A stretch of DNA of 64,000 nt from Baekduia soli (lineage in GTDB: Bacteria > Actinomycetota > Thermoleophilia > Solirubrobacterales > Solirubrobacteraceae), in assembly GCF_007970665.1 (NCBI RefSeq), contig NZ_CP042430.1:4712001-4776000 (forward strand). The letters are read 5' to 3'. The notes beneath the pieces are model-generated. The model saw nothing but the letters and a program-made list of their open reading frames with translations, was not told the origin of the DNA and ran no database searches. Made by a program: the position numbers and the translations under genes. Of the stretch, positions 44,393-56,321 are shown piece after piece. Each line of letters begins with the position of its first letter. The stretch's first letter is position 1.

Positions 44393-46010
44393 CAGCCCCC
44401 AGGAGGTAGTCGAGGAGGGTCGAGGCGGCGCCGGAGGACGGCGTGGCGGGCGAGGCCGAGGAGGCGGGCGTCGTGCCCGACGAGACGGGCGCCGCCGCGG
44501 TCGCGGTGCCCTTCGCCCGCGGCGACCCACCCGGCAGGACGCTGGCGGGCAGGTCGATCCGGCTCGGGGTGCCCGTGGCGCTCGAGCTCTTCGGCGTGGT
44601 CGCCGGGGCGCCGTCGGCGGCCTGCAGCAGGTTGGGGTCCAGGCCCTTGGCCACGGCCTCCTGGCGGGCCAGGGCGGGGCTGCGGCCGGCGGCGATCTCC
44701 CGGTCGACCGAGGCGACGGTCGGCGTGGAGGTGGCCGCGGTCCTCGCCGAGGCCGCGCTCGCCGAGGCGGGGGCCGGCCAGCGCGCGCTGCAGCCCGCGC
44801 CCGGGTTGGCCGCGGCGTTGTACTGCGAGCACGTCGTCACGACCAGCGCGGCGCGCAGGTAGTGGCCGATCGAGTCATAGCCGTTGGTCGCGGCGGCCTG
44901 GAAGTACAGGAGGTCCATGAGCCGCTCGATCCCGCCCGTGTCCCTCAGACTGGTCAGCAGCAGGTTCAGGTTGCGCGTCAGCGGCTTGGCCTGGCCGGCG
45001 AACGTGCGCAGATCGCCGACGATCGGCCTGCTCTTGATGAGCGCCTGGTCGCCGACGTCGGCGGCGTCGCCCAGCGTCTGCAGCGCCGGGATCCCGGCCT
45101 GGCTGAACGGGCCGAGCTCCTTGATGAAGCGGTTGATGGACGGGGCCGACGACCCGAGGTCGGTGAGCACCGGCGTCATCTGGTCGGCCAGGCCCCCGAG
45201 GCGCTGCATCGTCGGCTTGAGCTGGCGCAGGAAGGCCGGGAGCTTCTGGATGTTGCGCTCGAGGTCGCCGCGCCGCTCGGCGGTCGCGACCGCGGTCGTG
45301 TTGGCCTTGGACACGAAGTCGGCGACCTTGGCGCGATCGCGTGCCAGCGGTGCGAGCACCTTGTCGCCGTTCGTCGCCAGATCGGCGAGCACCTTGTTCT
45401 GCTCGGCGAGGATCGCCAGGACCTGGTCGGTCTGCTGGAGCGCCGGGTCGGCCTGCCGGATGGCCTGGCGCAGCTCGTCGCCGTTGGCGGCCAGGCCCGT
45501 GCCGAGCTCGTTGATGATGACCGACAGCCGCTCGCGATAGGGCAGCCGCATGATGTTGCCGACGAGGTCGAGGTCGATCGGCTTCGTGTTCTGCGAGGCG
45601 GGGAGCAGGTACTCGCCCTTGCCGGGCCCCGAGCGGATCTTGTCCAGCGCGGGCGCGGCCGGGTCGCCGTCGGCGCGCGGCTGGGTCGGCGTGCACTCGA
45701 CGTAGCGCTCGCCGATCAGCGACTGCGGGCGGATCGTGCAGGTGGCGTCCTTGCGGAAGTCCTGGAAGCCGGGCTCGGTGATGTCCAGGACGACCGCGGC
45801 CTTGTTGTCGGGCGTGACGTCCAGCGCGCCGATCTTGCCGACCCGCACGCCGGAGATCTTGACGTCCTCGCCGGGGATGACGGTGAAGGCGTTGGCGAAG
45901 ATCGCGCGGACGCGGTATGAGCCCTTCGTGTCCCCCGCCCCCGTGCCCAGGACGAGCACGACGCCGGCGGCGCACAGGGCGATGGCGATGGCGATCAGGC
46001 GCCGGGTCAT
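44392..46010 (-). CDS. Mce protein 2 of the operon (MlaD-like), frameshift at the last codons
   Basis: ATG 46010 opens MTRRLIAIAIALCAAGVVLVLG (transmembrane) and the MCE domain (YRVRAIFANAFTVIPGEDVKISGVRVGKI, ERYVECTPTQP). A Ser/Thr/Ala-rich tail ends ASTLLDYLLG. The frame then fails to stop unless one base is added to the C run 44396-44400, which gives LLGG-stop in a TGATG overlap with the next start (539 residues). Confidence 0.82.
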
Positions 46011-47347
46011 GGGCCGGGCGGGACGATGCTCGGGTCGCAGTCCGAGCCCTCGGGGGTGTACGGGTTGGAGCCGTCGGCGGCGGTCTGGGTGGCCGAGCCC
46101 GGGCAGCGCCGGACCTTGCCGGCCTCCAGGCCGGTGACGCGCTGGCTCGCCGGCAGCGGGTTCAGCGTCCGGGTGCCCGACGGGCTCGTCGTGAGCTGGA
46201 AGGCGCCGACGAGCGGCGAGATGCGGGCGAAGTGGCCGTTGGCGTCGTAGTTGGCCGTGGTCTGGCCGAAGTCGCGGAACCAGCCGATGAGGTCGGGCGC
46301 GTAGGGCCGGATGAACTGGAGCACCGGCGTGCCCTGGCGCAGCCCGGCGATCGTGTGCTGGAACGCCGGGCCCGCGACCCTGGTCAGCCGCGGCTGCTTC
46401 TTGAGCAGGTCGATGAGGTCGTTGTCGACCCCCGGCCTGCTGATGAGCGTGCTCAGGTCGTCGATCGTCGGCTGGGCGCCGGTGACCAGCGGGCGCAGCC
46501 GGCGGAAGAACGGCGCGAGCTTGGGCGCGACGGGCTTGCTGGCGTCGACGAGCTTGTCGAGGTCGTCCAGCGTGGACCGCAGGTCGACGAACGTGCTGTT
46601 GGCGTTGCGCAGCGTGCTCGGCAGCGACGTCAGCGCCTGGTCCAGCGACGCGCTCTCGGAGCCGATCGCGCCCGACGCCGCGTTCGCGTTGGCCACCAGG
46701 CCCGAGAGGTCGTCGCGCCGCTCGGCCAGCGCGGTGGTCGCCCGCGCGGTGTAGGTGACGAAGTCCTGCAGCGACTGCTGGTCGCGGGTGAGCTCGTTGA
46801 CCAGGCGCGAGGTCGTGCTCAGCGCCGGGTTGAAGTACTTCAGCGCCTCGTTGGCCTGGGCGCCCTTGCCCGCGTACTGGGTCGCCGAGCCCTTGATGAC
46901 GTCCTGCAGCGCCTTGCGGGTCCGGGGGTCCAGCGTGTCGAAGAGCTGGTCGAGGTCCACGGGCGCCGTCGTGCGGTCCAGGGCCAGCGTGGCGCCGTCG
47001 TCGAGCTTGGGCGCCGAGTTGGGCCCGGGGCTCAGCGCGATGTAGCGGTTGGCCACGCCCGACAGCGAGCCGGCGCGGATCTGCGCGGTGGTCCCCTGGT
47101 GCAGCGGCGCGTAGGGCGCGTCGACCTGGATCCGCACGCGGGCCAGGTTGTCGGGCGTGAGCTTGATCTCGGCCACCCGGCCGATGCGCCGGCCGCCGAT
47201 CTGCACGTCGTTGTCCTTGACGAGCTGGCCCGCGTTCTGGAAGAGCAGCGTGTACTCGTGCCCGCTGCGGCCGGTCAGCAGCAGCACGGCGACGACCACC
47301 ACCGCCGCCGCGATCGCCGCGAGCGCGAGGCCGCGGGCGGGCGTCAT
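46007..47347 (-). CDS. Mce protein 1 of the operon (MlaD-like)
   Basis: This intact 446-residue protein starts at ATG 47347 after a 123-bp gap from the ATPase. A transmembrane helix (LALAAIAAAVVVVAVLLLTG) is followed by a clear MCE domain (HEYTLLFQNAGQLVKDNDVQIGGRRIGRV, NRYIALSPGP). The helical region (150-330) contains repeated LS.L..A. and DL..L patterns. It overlaps the next gene by ATGA. Family knowledge: MCE domains form a ring over the permease for lipid import. Confidence 0.87.
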   Translation of the reverse strand: MTPARGLALAAIAAAVVVVAVLLLTGRSGHEYTLLFQNAGQLVKDNDVQIGGRRIGRVAEIKLTPDNLARVRIQVDAPYAPLHQGTTAQIRAGSLSGVANRYIALSPGPNSAPKLDDGATLALDRTTAPVDLDQLFDTLDPRTRKALQDVIKGSATQYAGKGAQANEALKYFNPALSTTSRLVNELTRDQQSLQDFVTYTARATTALAERRDDLSGLVANANAASGAIGSESASLDQALTSLPSTLRNANSTFVDLRSTLDDLDKLVDASKPVAPKLAPFFRRLRPLVTGAQPTIDDLSTLISRPGVDNDLIDLLKKQPRLTRVAGPAFQHTIAGLRQGTPVLQFIRPYAPDLIGWFRDFGQTTANYDANGHFARISPLVGAFQLTTSPSGTRTLNPLPASQRVTGLEAGKVRRCPGSATQTAADGSNPYTPEGSDCDPSIVPPGP

Positions 47348-47470
47348 CGCGCCACCCCGGCGGGGCGGCGGTCAGCCCGCGTGCGGCGGGGCGCGGCGGT
47401 CGGCGGGATGTCGGGCGGCGAGGGCAGGGCGGGGTGTCGTGGTCGGGACCAGGTGCGCGGCGGGTGCCGC

Positions 47471-48406
47471 TCACTCCATGCCCAGCGGCCCCTGGGACTC
47501 GCCGGACAGGAACTGGCGCACGAAGGCGTTCTCGGAGTTGAAGAGCTCCTCGGCCGGGCCGGACTCCACGATGCGGCCCTTCCACAGCACGCTGATGTAC
47601 TCGGCGACGCGGCGGGCGCTCATGATGTCGTGCGTGATCACCGTGTAGCAGCCGCCGTTCTCCTCGTGGATCTCCTGGATGAGCTCGCACAGCAGCGCGG
47701 TGCGGACCGGGTCCAGCCCGGAGTCCGGCTCGTCGAAGAGCACGATGTCGGGGTCGAGCACCAGCGCACGGGCGAAGCCGGCGCGCTTGCGCATCCCGCC
47801 CGACAGCTCGTTGGGCATCTTGTCCTCGGAGTGGCCGAGGCCGACCTCGCCCAGGCGACGGCGCACGATGTCGAGGATCTCCTCCTCGGACTTGTCGGTG
47901 TGCTGGCGCAGCGGGAACGCGACGTTGTCGATGAGGTTCATCGAGCCGAACAGCGCGCCGTCCTGGAAGAGCACGCCGAACTTCTTGCGCATCTCGAACA
48001 GCTCGTCGTCGGTCATGTTCGGCACCGACGCGCCGTGGACGAGCACGTCGCCCTCGTCGGGGTACAGCAGGCCGACCATGTGCTTGATGCACACCGACTT
48101 GCCCGTGCCCGAGGGGCCGAGGATCATCGAGATCTTGCCCTCGGGCAGGCCCATGTTCAGGCCGCGCAGGATCTTGTTGCGCCCGAAGGCCTTGTGGACG
48201 TCGACGAACTCGACGGCGTCGGGGACGCCGGTCGGGCGGTTCAGGCCGGTGTGCCACTGGTACTCGTCGGCGTCGGCGCCCGCGGGCGGCGCCTCGCGCA
48301 CGACTGAGGCGCGCACGGGCCGGTCGTCGGCCGGGCGGTCGGCGCCGGCGGCCGGCGGCGCGCCCGTGCCGTCGCCGTCGCGGGGATCTCGTGGGGTCTC
48401 GGACAT
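47471..48406 (-). CDS. mkl: Mkl/MceG-type ABC ATPase encoded inside the mce operon
   Basis: This 311-residue ATPase powers lipid transport through the YrbE/Mce complex. It has a 60-residue disordered N-terminal extension, then VEFVDVHKAFGRNKILRGLNM, Walker A GPSGTGKSVCIKHM (97-110), GVLFQDGALFGSMNLIDNVAFPL (Q-loop), signature NELSGGMRKRAGFARAL, Walker B DIVLFDEPDSGLDP and VITHDIMSARRVAEYI (H-loop). In mycobacteria the ATPase mceG is unlinked. Here it lies between the permeases and mce genes, as in Gram-negative mla loci. Confidence 0.92.
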   Translation of the reverse strand: MSETPRDPRDGDGTGAPPAAGADRPADDRPVRASVVREAPPAGADADEYQWHTGLNRPTGVPDAVEFVDVHKAFGRNKILRGLNMGLPEGKISMILGPSGTGKSVCIKHMVGLLYPDEGDVLVHGASVPNMTDDELFEMRKKFGVLFQDGALFGSMNLIDNVAFPLRQHTDKSEEEILDIVRRRLGEVGLGHSEDKMPNELSGGMRKRAGFARALVLDPDIVLFDEPDSGLDPVRTALLCELIQEIHEENGGCYTVITHDIMSARRVAEYISVLWKGRIVESGPAEELFNSENAFVRQFLSGESQGPLGME

Positions 48407-48413
48407 GACGTGG

Positions 48414-49211
48414 TCAGCCTCCGATCGGCGCCCTGGGGTTGGCGCCCCAGAACACCTGGGTCCCGAGCATGCCTATGAGGTGCACCAGGACGATGTTCAA
48501 CACCATGGATTTCGCGGTCGCCGTTCCCACGCCCACGGGTCCCCCGCCCGCGTGATAGCCGTAGTAGCAGCCGACGAGGACGATGGCCGTCGCCATGACC
48601 ATGCCCTTGATGACGCTGTAGAGCAGGTCTGGAGGGTTCTGGAACATCCAGAAGATGAGCGAGAAGCCGCCCGATGACACCTCCCCGATCTGCTGCACGA
48701 CCGCGAGGTAGCTGGCGAAGAAGCCGGCGCCGACCGCCGACATGTACATGAAGGGCAGCACGAGCCACGATGCCAGCAGGCGGGTCGCGCAGAGGAAGAG
48801 GACCGAGTCGATGCCCATGACCTCCAGGGCGTCGATCTCGTCGGAGATCCGCATGGAGCCCAGCTCGGCGACGATGCCCGTGCCGACCTTGGCCGACATC
48901 ATGTAGCCGAAGCCGTAGGGCACGATCTCGCGCAGGTCGCACCAGGCCGCGAACACGCCGGCGTAGGCGGGTGCGCCCTGCGCGCGCGTGAAGTACGCGC
49001 CCTCGATGCCGCACTGCAGGCCGACGATGAAGACCAGGCCCCAGATGACGATCGTCGAGCCCAGGATGAGCACGCCGCACTGGCGCAGCGTCTCGCCGAA
49101 GAAGTGCAGCACCCGCAGGCTGTAGACCTGCCCGAGGACCTTGCCGCAGAACTTCGCGATCTCCCCGAACGACGTGATCCACTCGCGCGGAAGGGCGAGC
49201 CAGCCACCCAC
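48414..49211 (-). CDS. YrbE/MlaE-family permease B
   Basis: This 265-residue permease starts at GTG 49211, overlapping the TAG of the first permease (TAGTG). Family motifs are VPYGFGYMMSAKVGTGIVAELGSMRISDEIDALEVMGID, the MlaE coupling-helix region, and about five transmembrane helices (ILGSTIVIWGLVFIVGLQ, SVLFLCATRLLASWLVLP, FMYMSAVGAGFFASYLAV, VIKGMVMATAIVLVGCYYG). It pairs with the first YrbE protein as the inner-membrane lipid permease heterodimer. Confidence 0.9.
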   Translation of the reverse strand: MGGWLALPREWITSFGEIAKFCGKVLGQVYSLRVLHFFGETLRQCGVLILGSTIVIWGLVFIVGLQCGIEGAYFTRAQGAPAYAGVFAAWCDLREIVPYGFGYMMSAKVGTGIVAELGSMRISDEIDALEVMGIDSVLFLCATRLLASWLVLPFMYMSAVGAGFFASYLAVVQQIGEVSSGGFSLIFWMFQNPPDLLYSVIKGMVMATAIVLVGCYYGYHAGGGPVGVGTATAKSMVLNIVLVHLIGMLGTQVFWGANPRAPIGG

Positions 49212-50053
49212 TACCTGATCACCGTGATCTCGGGATGCGTGGCCAGCAGGGTCTGGGTGAAGACGTAGTTGAACGCGAAGACGCCCAGGAAGGTGATGAC
49301 GACGGCCTGGTTGACGGCCTTGCCGACGCCCTCGGCGCCGCCCGAGGCGGTCATCCCCTTGTAACAGCAGACGATCGCGGTGATCGCGCCGAACATGGTG
49401 CACTTCAGCAGCGAGCCCCACAGGTCGGTCGTCGACGCGTTGGTGAAGAACGTCGCCCAGAACTCGCCGAGCGGCGCGCCGTTGACCAGCATCGCGATCA
49501 GGCCGCCGGCGACGCCGAAGATGATGGCGAACACGTCGAACAGTCCGGTCACCAGCATGAGCGCCAGGAAGCGCGGCACGACGAGGTTCTTGACCGGATC
49601 GACGCCGAGCACCTGCAGCGCGTCGAGCTCCTCGCGGATCTTGCGCGCGCCGAGGTCGGCGGTGATCGCCGTGCCGGCCACGCCCGCGACGATGATGGCG
49701 CACACGAACGGTGCGAACTCGCGGATGACGGCGAGCACGAAGAAGCCGCCGAGGCGGTCGATGGCGCCGAACAGGATGAGGAAGTTGGCGGCCTGGAGGC
49801 CGGGGGCGCCGTAGGAGACGGCCACGGTGGAGATGAGCAGCGGCAGCCAGCAGAGCCGCAGCGCGAAGAGGAACTGCCCCACGAACTCGCTGCCGTAGGG
49901 ATACGGCGGGCGCAGGGCCGACACCAGGGTCTTCCCCGTCAGGATCATCATGTCGCCTACTTCTTCGAGCAGGCTCTTCGCCGGGGCGAATGCCCGATCG
50001 GCAACCGTGCTGACCACGCGGTCTGGGACCTCTCCTTCCACCACCTTCGGCAC
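49211..50053 (-). CDS. YrbE/MlaE-family permease A
   Basis: This 280-residue permease probably starts at GTG 50053 (VPKVVEGEVPD), with a longer open frame upstream lacking conservation. Motifs REFAPFVCAIIVAGVAGTAITADLGARKIREELDALQVLGVDP (with the E-E-x-D-A-L coupling helix) and five hydrophobic helices define the MlaE family. It is the first gene of the mce run. The 145-bp gap to the divergent lipoprotein holds the promoter region. Confidence 0.9.
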   Translation of the reverse strand: MPKVVEGEVPDRVVSTVADRAFAPAKSLLEEVGDMMILTGKTLVSALRPPYPYGSEFVGQFLFALRLCWLPLLISTVAVSYGAPGLQAANFLILFGAIDRLGGFFVLAVIREFAPFVCAIIVAGVAGTAITADLGARKIREELDALQVLGVDPVKNLVVPRFLALMLVTGLFDVFAIIFGVAGGLIAMLVNGAPLGEFWATFFTNASTTDLWGSLLKCTMFGAITAIVCCYKGMTASGGAEGVGKAVNQAVVITFLGVFAFNYVFTQTLLATHPEITVIR

Positions 50054-50183
50054 GCCCCGCTTCTCTTCGGGGCCTCCCACCGGCGGCCAGTGTATGGGAC
50101 CACTTCGGCGGGTGGCAAACGGGAACCGGGCGGCCCCCGCACCCCGTCGAATTCGACCCGCGGCCCACCGCACCTCCCTCTGG

Positions 50184-50189
50184 TACGGT
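50184..50189 (+). promoter_or_regulatory. Extended -10 box (TGGTACGGT) of the lipoprotein gene
   Basis: CTCTGGTACGGT at 50178-50189 repeats the 12 bases found before the TPP riboswitch at 24880-24891. It ends 9 nt before the GTG start. Confidence 0.4.
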
Positions 50190-50198
50190 CAGCGCGCA

Positions 50199-50810
50199 GT
50201 GGAGGGGTCCCGGAGAGGATGGCGGTCGGCCTGCGCCGTCGCGGCGGCGTCGGGCGCGCTCGCCGTGGGCTGCGGCGGCGGTGAGCGCCAGGACGCCAAC
50301 GAGCCCGCCGGCACGTTCAAGGTGGCGGTCACCGACGCCTCGTTCCCCGAGCGCCAGAGCATCGCCGGCAGCTCGACGATGCGGGTCACGGTCCGCAACG
50401 CCGACACCCGGACGATCCCCGACATCGCGGTGACGATCACCGCCGACGACGCCGAGGGCGGCGGCGGCTTCACGAGCCGCTCGGCCGACGCCGGGCTCTC
50501 GGATCCGACCACCCCGCTGTGGATCGTGGACTCCGAGCCGCGCGGGGGCGGCACGGCCTACGTCAGCACGTGGGCCCTCGGGCCGCTGCCGGCCGGGCAG
50601 ACCCGCTCCTTCGTGTGGCGCGTGACCCCCGTCGTCGCGGGCTCGCACACCCTCCGCTACCGCGTCGCCGCCGGGCTCAACGGCCGCGCGCGCGCCCAGA
50701 CGCCGTCCGGCGACGACCCGTCGGGCGTGTTCCGCGTGATGGTGTCGCGCACCCCGCCGCAGGCCACGGTGGACCCGAAGACGGGCGACGTCGTGACCGC
50801 GAGCCCCTAG
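50199..50810 (+). CDS. Secreted lipoprotein with a beta-sandwich domain
   Basis: This 203-residue protein probably starts at GTG 50199. The signal peptide (WRSACAVAAASGALAVGC) ends in a lipobox with Cys at about residue 28. The body is an all-beta, Ig/CARDB-like domain (FKVAVTDASFPERQSI, MRVTVRNADTRTIPDIAVTI, RSFVWRVTPVVAGSHTLRYRVAAGL). Such domains appear in envelope proteins and binding lipoproteins. It is divergent from the mce operon, but no functional link is proven. Confidence 0.65.
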   Translation: MEGSRRGWRSACAVAAASGALAVGCGGGERQDANEPAGTFKVAVTDASFPERQSIAGSSTMRVTVRNADTRTIPDIAVTITADDAEGGGGFTSRSADAGLSDPTTPLWIVDSEPRGGGTAYVSTWALGPLPAGQTRSFVWRVTPVVAGSHTLRYRVAAGLNGRARAQTPSGDDPSGVFRVMVSRTPPQATVDPKTGDVVTASP

Positions 50811-50817
50811 CGGGCGC

Positions 50818-52068
50818 CTACTTCGGCAGGCGCGGCGCGATGATCCGGTAGGCCTTGAGCCCGAGGCCCAGGCGCTCGCGGTCCTCGGAGAGCATCGGGT
50901 CCAGCCCCGTGAGCTCCTTCACGCGCTCCAGGCGGTAGGCCACGGTGTGGCGATGCGCGTAGATCGCCGAGGCGGTCGCGTTCATGTTGCAGTTCTGCTC
51001 GAGGTAGGACTCGAGGGTGCCGACGAGGTCGGTCCGGTACTGGTCGTCGTAGCGCACGATCGGCGCGACGGTGTCCTCGTAGAAGGACCGGACCTCCTCC
51101 GGGTGGCTGGCCAGCACCCGGAACAGCAGCCGGTAGGTGCCCGTGCCGATGTCCTGGACGCCGTCCCAGCCCCCGCCGGTGGGCGGGTTCTGCCTCAGGA
51201 CGTCGAGGACCAGCTCGGCCTCCTGGATGGCGCGCGGCAGCTCGGCCGGGTCGGAGTAGAAGCTCGAGACGCCGACCGTGCCGTGCCGGCGCAGGCGGGT
51301 GGCCAGCGCGCGGGCGCGGGCCGTCGTCGTGTCCGGGGCGTCGTCGCCGCCGGTGCCCGGCAGGATCGCGTAGACGCGGCCGTCCAGATGCTCGGCCAGC
51401 GCGCCCGGCTCGTCGCCGGTGATCGTCGCGATGACGTGGCGCGGGCGGTCGGTCGTCAGCTCGGCGCACAGCACGACCGCGCCGCGGGCCAGGTCGCAGC
51501 CCAGGCGGGCCGCGCGCCGCACGACCTCGCGCGGCTCGAGGTCGGGCCGGGAGCGCAGGTCCTCCAGGAAGGAGCCGCGCAGGTTCTGCTCGACCTCCTC
51601 CTTGGCCTCCTCCACGGCGACCTCGGTGAGGCAGGCGACCGCCGCGAGGTGCAGGAAGTCGGCCGCCTCGGGCGAGGGGCCCGGGTGGCCGGGATCCGTG
51701 GAGCGCAGGAGCACCACGGCGCCGACGACGTCGTCGCCGGACTGGATCGGCACCTCGGCCGCGAGGCCCTCGGGCACCGGCGAGGGCCGGTCGCCGATGC
51801 GGTCGACGACGTAGCGCCGGACGTCCTCGAGCGTCTGCTCGCGGACCCCGTGCTCGCCGCCGGCCCCCGCCGCGGCGTCCAGCCTCGGGACGATGATCGC
51901 GACAGGCGCCCCGGCCGCCTCGGCGGCCAGGGCGGCCACCTGCTGGAGGCCGTCGCCGCCGAGCACGGCGTCCACCATCCGCAGGTGCACCTGTCGCAGT
52001 CGCTCGACCAGCGACCCGGTCGGTGAGGCGGCGGCTGCCGCCCCGCGGTCCTCCGCCGCCTCACCCAT
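50818..52068 (-). CDS. PucR/CdaR-type transcriptional regulator with GAF-like domain
   Basis: This 416-residue regulator starts at ATG 52068, 12 nt after the PII gene. N-terminal residues 20-190 resemble a GAF domain (MVDAVLGGDGLQQVAALAA, APVAIIVPRLD, PIQSGDDVVGAVVLLRS). The middle has the GGDEF-like CdaR region, and the C-terminus carries the PucR helix-turn-helix (LVGTLESYLEQNCNMNATASAIYAHRHTVAYRLERVKELTGLDP, in pieces). PucR regulators often control purine or nitrogen catabolism. Its position suggests that it, not GlnD, is the regulatory output of this nitrogen operon. Confidence 0.88.
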   Translation of the reverse strand: MGEAAEDRGAAAAASPTGSLVERLRQVHLRMVDAVLGGDGLQQVAALAAEAAGAPVAIIVPRLDAAAGAGGEHGVREQTLEDVRRYVVDRIGDRPSPVPEGLAAEVPIQSGDDVVGAVVLLRSTDPGHPGPSPEAADFLHLAAVACLTEVAVEEAKEEVEQNLRGSFLEDLRSRPDLEPREVVRRAARLGCDLARGAVVLCAELTTDRPRHVIATITGDEPGALAEHLDGRVYAILPGTGGDDAPDTTTARARALATRLRRHGTVGVSSFYSDPAELPRAIQEAELVLDVLRQNPPTGGGWDGVQDIGTGTYRLLFRVLASHPEEVRSFYEDTVAPIVRYDDQYRTDLVGTLESYLEQNCNMNATASAIYAHRHTVAYRLERVKELTGLDPMLSEDRERLGLGLKAYRIIAPRLPK

Positions 52069-52080
52069 CGACCGGATCTC

Positions 52081-52452
52081 CTAGGCAGTCGTCGTGGCGG
52101 CATCGGGGTGGGCCTGGAGGATCTCCTCGCCGGCCTCCCCGGTGCGGACGCGATAGGCCTCTTCGACGGGCATGACGAACACCTTGCCGTCACCCACGGC
52201 GCCGGTACGGGCGTGCTTGAGGACGGTGTCCACGATCGTCTGCACGTCGGTGTCGGACACCACGCACTCGAGCTTGACCTTGGGCCGGAGGTAGTTCGTC
52301 AGCTCCGCTCCGCGGTAGCGCTCGGTGATGCCCTTCTGACGGCCCGAGCCCTTGACCTCGCTGATGCTCAGCGAGGGGAACCCGAGGTCGAGGAGCTCCG
52401 TGCGGATCGGCTCGAACGCCTCGTGCCGGATATAGGCCACGACCATCTTCAT
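52081..52452 (-). CDS. glnB: PII signal-transduction protein with Leu instead of Tyr51
   Basis: This 123-residue PII protein starts MKMVVAYIRHEAFEPIRTEL at ATG 52452 (ATGA overlap with amt). FPSLSISEVKGSGRQKG, ERYRGAELTNYLRPKVKLE (the T-loop) and RTGAVGDGKVFVMPVEEAYRVRTGE are diagnostic. Aligning the invariant RGAE of the T-loop puts Leu at residue 51, where Tyr is normally uridylylated or adenylylated. Tyr54 is the nearest Tyr. Regulation by GlnD-type modification is therefore unlikely. Binding of ATP/ADP and 2-oxoglutarate to control Amt should remain. Confidence 0.93.
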   Translation of the reverse strand: MKMVVAYIRHEAFEPIRTELLDLGFPSLSISEVKGSGRQKGITERYRGAELTNYLRPKVKLECVVSDTDVQTIVDTVLKHARTGAVGDGKVFVMPVEEAYRVRTGEAGEEILQAHPDAATTTA

Positions 52453-53927
52453 GTTGCGGGAACCTCCGTGTGGCTCGTGATGGGCCCGATGCCGCTCGCG
52501 GCGGCCGTGCCCTGGGGTGCGGCACCGTAACCGACGAGCTCCGGGGCCGGGATGAACTGCTCCGGGTAGCCGTACATCCCGTGCTCGGAGATGTCCAGTC
52601 CGGCCAGTTCCTCCTCCTCGGAGACGCGCATGCCGTAGGTCGCCTTGATGATGCCGAAGGCCACGTAGCTCAGGACGAACACGAACGCGAAGACCACGAC
52701 CACGCCGAGGGCCTGGCGGCCCAGCTGCTCGAACGAGCCGGTGTAGATCAGACCGCCCTTGCCGACGGCGTTGAACGCCGCCAGGTCGGGGTGCGTGAAG
52801 ATGCCGCAGGCCAGCGTGCCCCAGATGCCCGCGAGCCCGTGGGCCGAGAGCGCACCGACGGGATCGTCGATGTACTTGTCGATCGCGTAGACGCCGAGGA
52901 CGACGATGACGCCGGCGATCATGCCGATCACCAGGGCCGCCCACGGGACGACGTAGCCGGAGCCCGCGGTGATCGCGACCAGCGCGGCGATGGCGCCGTT
53001 GCCGGCCATGCCGATGTCGATCGCCTTCGTCCTCCAGTACGCGGTCGCCACGGCGGTGAGCACGCCGCCGGCGGCGGCGATGTTCGTCGTGATCACGACC
53101 TCGGGGAAGCGGCCGTCGAGCGCGTTGAGCGTCGAGCCCGGGTTGAACCCGAACCAGCCGAGCCACAGGATGAAGATGCCCAGGCCGAACAGGGGCATGT
53201 TGTGGCCGGGGATGGCCCGCGGCTTGCCGTCGGGTCCGTACTTGCCCTTCCTCGGCCCGAGGTGCAGCAGGGCCGCCAGGGCGCCCGTCGCGCCGATGAG
53301 GTGCACCGCCGTGGATCCGGCGAAGTCCTGCATCCCGACGTTGACCTGCAGCCAGCCGCCGCCGAACACCCAGCCCGAGGCGATCGGGTAGATGACCGCG
53401 GAGAACACGATCGCGTACAGGATGTACACGCCGAACTTGACGCGCTCCAGCGTCGTGCCCCAGACGATGGCCAGCGACACGGCGCAGAACACGAACTGGA
53501 AGAAGAACTTCGATTCGATCGTCGCGTCCGAGAAGCCCATGATCGGGAACGCGGTGCTGGGATCGCCGTAGGCGCGCAGGAAGAACCCATGCGTCCCGAG
53601 GACGTGGCCCGTGTCACCGCCGAAGGCGAACGCGAAGCCGACGGCCCAGTAGAGGATCGCCGCGATGGAGAAGTTCACGAGGATCTTCGCGATGATGGTG
53701 CCCGCGTTCTTGCCCCGGGAGAAGCCGATCTCCAGGAAGGCGAACCCGGCCTGCATGAACATCACGAGGACGCCGGCGACGATCACCCACATCGAGTTGA
53801 TGCCGACGCTCTGCAGCAGTCCTTGGCTGCCGGCCCGGTCGTAGACGTCGGCGGATGCCGTGGCAGGCAGGATAAGCGCGGCGAACGCACCGAACATCAG
53901 CGCGCGAGCCGTCAGGGAACGTCTCAT
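52449..53927 (-). CDS. amt: Ammonium transporter (Amt family)
   Basis: This 492-residue channel has a signal peptide (to about ASA-D26) and 11 transmembrane helices. The two pore His are seen in GSTAVHLIGATGALAALLHLGPR and ALSAHGLAGIWGTLACG. RBS AGGAGG lies 6 nt before the ATG at 53927. It imports ammonium and is gated by the PII protein encoded immediately downstream, with which it overlaps by ATGA. Length and pattern are normal, apart from a longer C-terminus. Confidence 0.95.
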   Translation of the reverse strand: MRRSLTARALMFGAFAALILPATASADVYDRAGSQGLLQSVGINSMWVIVAGVLVMFMQAGFAFLEIGFSRGKNAGTIIAKILVNFSIAAILYWAVGFAFAFGGDTGHVLGTHGFFLRAYGDPSTAFPIMGFSDATIESKFFFQFVFCAVSLAIVWGTTLERVKFGVYILYAIVFSAVIYPIASGWVFGGGWLQVNVGMQDFAGSTAVHLIGATGALAALLHLGPRKGKYGPDGKPRAIPGHNMPLFGLGIFILWLGWFGFNPGSTLNALDGRFPEVVITTNIAAAGGVLTAVATAYWRTKAIDIGMAGNGAIAALVAITAGSGYVVPWAALVIGMIAGVIVVLGVYAIDKYIDDPVGALSAHGLAGIWGTLACGIFTHPDLAAFNAVGKGGLIYTGSFEQLGRQALGVVVVFAFVFVLSYVAFGIIKATYGMRVSEEEELAGLDISEHGMYGYPEQFIPAPELVGYGAAPQGTAAASGIGPITSHTEVPAT

Positions 53928-54176
53928 GTGACCTCCTAGTCGAGCGTGCCCCGGCAGTCTGTTCGGGCATCGACCCCCGGTCGTTAGCCCGATGTCGAAA
54001 GATCGTCCGGTGCGATTAACCACGTGGTCGAACGGGCCCTGACCCGAGGGCGAACCGCCTCCGCCGCTCTTTGGACACCTGTACAAGGCGCCTCACGGGC
54101 GCGCGAACTAGGCTCGCTGGTGCCGCCCCGACTGCGAGTCGGCCCCGCACGCACACGAAGGAGTCAGCGCCCACCC
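53928..54176. promoter_or_regulatory. 249-bp divergent promoter region of amt and type III glutamine synthetase
   Basis: The region includes GTTAGCCCGATGTCGAAAG at 53982-54000, which only loosely resembles GlnR boxes, and no clear -10/-35 pairs. GAAGGAG precedes the glutamine synthetase start by 13 nt. A shared nitrogen-control site is plausible but unproven. Confidence 0.3.

Positions 54177-56321
<2,145 letters not shown>

Follow-up and report, generated by a model that had tools for sequence, protein, structure and literature searches.

A GlnK-type PII protein with leucine at residue 51 in an amt–PII–pucR operon of Baekduia soli

How does a PII protein act when it lacks the tyrosine that GlnD-type enzymes modify? 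The question is raised by a PII gene of Baekduia soli, found in a stretch of 64,000 nucleotides (hereafter the window) that covers positions 4,712,001–4,776,000 of the 5.21 Mb genome, a single contig. The gene (52081..52452 of the window, minus strand) is read from 52452 to 52081, as MKMVVAYIRHEAF…SGRQKGITERYRGAELTNYLRPKVK…, and encodes 123 residues, of which residue 51 is Leu. The original prediction, made from the letters alone, proposed that nitrogen signalling runs here by direct PII binding instead of covalent modification, with a neighbouring PucR-type regulator as the output. Our analysis supports the first part of this proposal well and does not bear out the second. We consider it likely that this GlnK-type PII functions with no covalent modification, that its block of the Amt channel is gated by effectors, and that PucR is a regulator of the locus itself. 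Unmodified PII proteins are a known kind already, while the variant formed by the amt–PII–pucR operon and its sites is undescribed in the open papers searched, a limited library in which we also found no description of nitrogen control in the lineage of Baekduia soli.

Residue 51 and its conservation

The P-II domain (PF00543) matched the window protein with 91.3 bits over residues 1–106 (model positions 1–102 of 102). The T-loop aligned without gaps to the E. coli numbering (RQKG at 38–41, YRGAE at 46–50, PKVK at 57–60), and the codon for residue 51 is CTG at 52302–52300, which confirms the exact T-loop and the replacement of Tyr by Leu that had been read at first. The residues of the ATP/2-oxoglutarate site (Q39, K58, G87–K90, R101 and R103) are all present. 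The protein has the linkage to amt and the Arg47 of the T-loop that characterize GlnK, and has Leu where a GlnD-modified PII has Tyr51.

As judged from the proteins of relatives, Leu51 is no chance error, since residue 51 was Leu, Val or Ile in all of 100 distinct PII proteins that share 65% identity or more with the window protein (76, 18 and 6, respectively; never Tyr) and also in 80/80 named loci fetched with a PII protein. The nearest named relatives are Solirubrobacteraceae, e.g. Svornostia, Paraconexibacter and Conexibacter. The original prediction had called for this check, and the answer was an aliphatic residue throughout. Because only these three residues occur at position 51, the comparison points to a hydrophobic contact under constraint and not to drift. 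The same 100 proteins were invariant at S36–Q39, G41, E44, Y46–R47–G48 and R56–P57–K58, as well as at G87-D88-G89-K90, R101 and R103, and thus have kept the residues of the effector site together with the Amt-blocking arginine.

Three further observations concern PII genes of other loci. Some relatives carry, just before the ordinary PII gene, a second, divergent PII (about 36–40% identity, T-loop HGGELERVETYRG; L027:3246-3566, L028:1218-1541, L033:3239-3559 and L050:3296-3613) followed by a divergent amt. A PII with Glu or Asp at position 51 lies near amt and a PucR-like gene in a different family of the class (L131, L132, L148, L164 and L174). Finally, public contigs titled 'Bifidobacterium breve' (L004, L060, L062 and L074) hold PII loci of the Solirubrobacterales type, with 75–89% identity to the window PII, and this label looks wrong.

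GlnD and GlnE in the genome, the class and the phylum

The genome contains one PII, one Amt and five genes with a glutamine synthetase (GS) domain; four of the latter (G000:C1 2319819, 2335386, 307085 and 320352) come in addition to the glnN gene of the window. No GlnD_UR_UTase domain (PF08335) was found in the genome with a search that did detect the domain in its E. coli, Caulobacter and Corynebacterium controls, and no GlnE domain was found either. The full-length GlnD model (TIGR01693) had a single match, which at 43 bits was far below the cut-off of 519; we rejected it as GlnD, as the protein carries PolyA_pol_RNAbd and HD domains and looks like a CCA-type tRNA nucleotidyltransferase. The genome-wide searches for PII, PF08335, GlnE and TIGR01693 thus argue against a second PII or a hidden GlnD. 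A second canonical PII together with glnD is what the original prediction had named as its refutation, and neither was found in the genome. With one PII, Leu51 and no domain of GlnD or GlnE detected, direct action of PII without modification by GlnD is well supported.

In a sample of 199 genomes of the class, PII was present in 155 and the GlnD domain in 7. These seven were exactly the genomes with a Tyr51 PII, and all belong to one family. Tyr51 occurred in 7/185 distinct PII proteins of the class, in a reading that left out the lowest-scoring genomes and some second copies. Since the seven GlnD-containing genomes form one family, their match with Tyr51 may reflect a single evolutionary event, and we therefore widened the comparison to the phylum. 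All 42 GlnD-containing genomes of the phylum sample had Tyr51, while among the 22 without GlnD, 14 kept Tyr and 8 had only Val, Ile or Leu. Within these samples, loss of Tyr51 goes with absence of GlnD without exception, but absence of GlnD does not predict loss of Tyr51; a strict two-way coupling is rejected by the 14/22 genomes that keep Tyr.

According to Merrick's review (PMC4285133), glnD is ubiquitous in actinobacteria, where it stands in an amtB–glnK–glnD operon. The present class departs from this rule. The picture of a ubiquitous GlnD is qualified by the fact that most sampled genomes of the class are without GlnD and have a PII without the target tyrosine, and the class offers a natural comparison group for the purpose of PII modification. 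The same review considers many PII proteins, including those of archaea and Bacillus, to be probably unmodified, and the Y51A mutant of E. coli GlnK still associates with AmtB and leaves it according to the nitrogen status (PMC4274968, PMC4285133).

The operon, its regulator and the sites between glnN and amt

The PII gene is the middle one of a single run of three genes on the minus strand. It is preceded by amt (52449..53927), the only ammonium transporter gene of the genome, the stop of which shares 4 nt with the start of the PII gene (52449–52452), and followed, 12 nt past its own stop, by the start of the gene for the PucR-type regulator (50818..52068). On the plus strand, and divergent from the operon, lies glnN (54177..56321), for a type III glutamine synthetase (GSIII_N, 256 bits). 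The adjacency of amt and PII is kept in almost all of the relatives' loci.

With the only amt of the genome overlapping the PII gene, gating of Amt by ATP, ADP and 2-oxoglutarate alone is the most likely role of this PII. High 2-oxoglutarate and ATP would keep the T-loop off the Amt channel, and when nitrogen is plentiful, ADP-bound PII would insert Arg47 into the adjacent Amt and close it. Leu51 is a conserved aliphatic residue in place of the tyrosine targeted by GlnD, consistent with a lineage without this enzyme.

The regulator has a C-terminal HTH_30 domain (PF13556; 68.6 bits, cut-off 27) and a GGDEF-like domain (GGDEF_2, PF17853), both recognized by Pfam. No GAF domain was matched by Pfam, even at an E-value of 5. 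An AlphaFold model (24 orthologues; pLDDT 85) has an N-terminal alpha/beta domain. Outside the PucR family, the weak structural matches of this domain were for the most part to GAF proteins (phytochromes, CodY, PDE), and the best matches of the C-terminal part were the C-terminal part of MabR and 3onq. Of the first description, amt and a PucR/GAF regulator in one transcript opposite a type III glutamine synthetase, the gene run and the divergence thus stand, while the GAF label is loose.

Several families of the Solirubrobacterales have an orthologue of the regulator (47–80% identity) next to amt–PII. In Patulibacter and other genera, PII has an aliphatic residue 51 and no PucR orthologue was found, so that Leu51 is not a signature of a partnership with PucR. 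Conversely, in two genomes, G169 (93% complete, no PII found) and G172, a PucR orthologue lies among GS-like and amt-like genes with no PII beside it. Both observations speak against PII as a necessary input of PucR, and the linkage suggests shared regulation rather than contact between the two proteins. Most of the PucR-type proteins that have been characterized are activators, and binding to inverted repeats has been shown for GabR, AdeR and PutR (PMC7652997). On both grounds we take PucR as a regulator of the locus with a signal of its own: it would most likely regulate the divergent glnN and amt–PII–pucR genes, without necessarily being a target of PII, with its own GAF-like or GGDEF-like domain as the probable sensor of a small molecule.

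The region between glnN and amt (53928–54176) contains two strong copies and one weaker copy of a palindrome, TTTGTCCAnnTGGACAAA. The strong, operator-like copies are TTTGGACACCTGTACAAG (54070..54087, 25.2 bits), proximal to glnN, and GTTAGCCCGATGTCGAAA (53983..54000, 18.2 bits), proximal to amt. Derived from the DNA between glnN and amt in 50 non-redundant loci, the palindrome had a log-likelihood gain of 653 bits, compared with 59–81 for four shuffled sets; the gain partly reflects the kinship of the loci. At a threshold of 9 bits or more, 96 sites, typically two per locus, were present in 15.4 kb of glnN/amt intergenic DNA and 14 in 441 kb elsewhere in the loci, a contrast that is partly built in as the matrix was trained on these intergenic regions. 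The strict pattern TTVKMCNNNNGKMBAA, which was drawn wide enough for both window sites and misses weaker ones, occurs at three places in 5.2 Mb (reversed control, 1): two are in this intergenic region and the third is GC-rich; its near absence elsewhere is the informative part. None of the four other glutamine synthetase genes has the palindrome nearby at 8 bits or more.

A third dyad site, TTAACCACGTGGTCGAA (54016..54032; TTCGACCACGTGGTTAA on the minus strand), belongs to a class mostly found where pucR is adjacent. With the main sites masked, the corresponding motif, CGACCnnnTGGCGAA, situated some 100 nt upstream of the start of amt, scored above 12 bits in 18/20 loci with PucR and 1/25 without, having been found in the former set and then scored on both. 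It is suggestive that this site tracks PucR, in a contrast confounded by descent. The papers searched contained no PucR operator sequence matching these sites. In all, glnN, amt, PII and pucR with two or three operator-like sites make up a small nitrogen circuit that can be tested.

Several points weigh against the reading that we prefer. We found no biochemistry for any of these proteins, and the completeness of the genome is estimated at 95.6%, though it is one contig. From sequence, PII may carry a different modification, at another residue or by another enzyme. The main palindrome also precedes amt in relatives that have no PucR orthologue, other families of the class among them, and the regulator of the locus may for this reason be a protein other than PucR.

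This last point leads to the strongest alternative, a serious contender, in which the reader of the palindromes is a class-wide regulator other than PucR, and PucR either acts elsewhere or binds the third site only. In its favour are the palindromes conserved with and without PucR and the uneven distribution of the third site; the neighbourhoods showed no conspicuous second family of regulators. However, this genome has the strict pattern only at the locus and at a single GC-rich place, a distribution easier to reconcile with a local regulator than with a global one, and the third-site contrast suffers from the relatedness already mentioned. A linked alternative regulator in the loci without PucR was looked for and none stood out; the neighbours shared there include mce-type genes. 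In the window itself, genes for an mce/MlaE-like permease and MlaD-like proteins (46000–50200, from their translations) adjoin the PII operon, and a similar neighbourhood recurs in many relatives.

A second alternative, which we regard as unlikely, is that PucR is a direct target of PII: free PII would bind PucR and switch the transcription of amt and glnN, and Amt would sequester PII at the membrane, much as GlnK pairs with TnrA in Bacillus subtilis or with AmtR in Corynebacterium glutamicum. Many Solirubrobacterales do have pucR in third place in the amt–PII operon, and PII is known to bind TnrA, GlnR and AmtR in Gram-positive bacteria (PMC5579400), so that by analogy with these GlnK complexes a contact with PucR is possible. 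Against this, a PII with the same T-loop persists in Patulibacter, where no PucR orthologue was found, G169 has its PucR orthologue between GS- and amt-like genes with no PII found, and the papers searched report no PII–PucR interaction. Slightly more doubtful still is the fuller scheme in which amt–PII–pucR replaces the actinobacterial amt–glnK–glnD and an unmodifiable PII passes the 2-oxoglutarate and energy signal directly to PucR, which would control glnN and amt through the palindromes while Amt sequesters PII at the membrane. Modification of PII at another residue or by another enzyme, for instance at Tyr54 or by a kinase on a Ser or Thr of the T-loop, is very improbable: the protein has Tyr54, Thr43 and Thr52, and cyanobacterial PII is phosphorylated at Ser49 (PMC4285133), but neither position is a conserved target in the 100 close PII proteins (at 54, Tyr in 70, with His, Asn or Trp in 15, 10 and 5, so that Tyr54 was rejected; at 49, Ala in 74 and otherwise Ser or Thr), and the domains of GlnD and GlnE were not found.

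Comparison with known systems

As in the unmodified GlnK–AmtB pairs of archaea and Firmicutes, and in E. coli with GlnK Y51A, the PII of Baekduia soli stands beside the only Amt, has Arg47 and the effector site intact, and is accompanied by no modifying enzyme. It differs from them in having Leu rather than Tyr at position 51 and in its host, an actinobacterium, from a phylum in which glnD is called ubiquitous (PMC4285133). With the amtB–glnK–glnD operon of Streptomyces and Corynebacterium it shares the order of amt and PII in one operon, while the third gene is pucR instead of glnD, and neither a GlnD nor a GlnE domain was found in the genome.

TnrA of Bacillus subtilis is a MerR-type regulator. 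The amtB–glnK system with TnrA resembles the present one in that its PII is not known to be modified and that a transcription factor completes the circuit (PMC4285133, PMC5579400); here, however, the linked regulator is of the PucR type and its contact with PII is putative. That regulator shares HTH_30, and often a GGDEF-like domain, with the PucR-type proteins GabR, PutR, AdeR and MabR, of which the first three have inverted-repeat sites (PMC7652997, PMC11617747). It is set apart from them by its GAF-like N-terminal domain and by its association with amt, PII and glnN instead of a catabolic operon.
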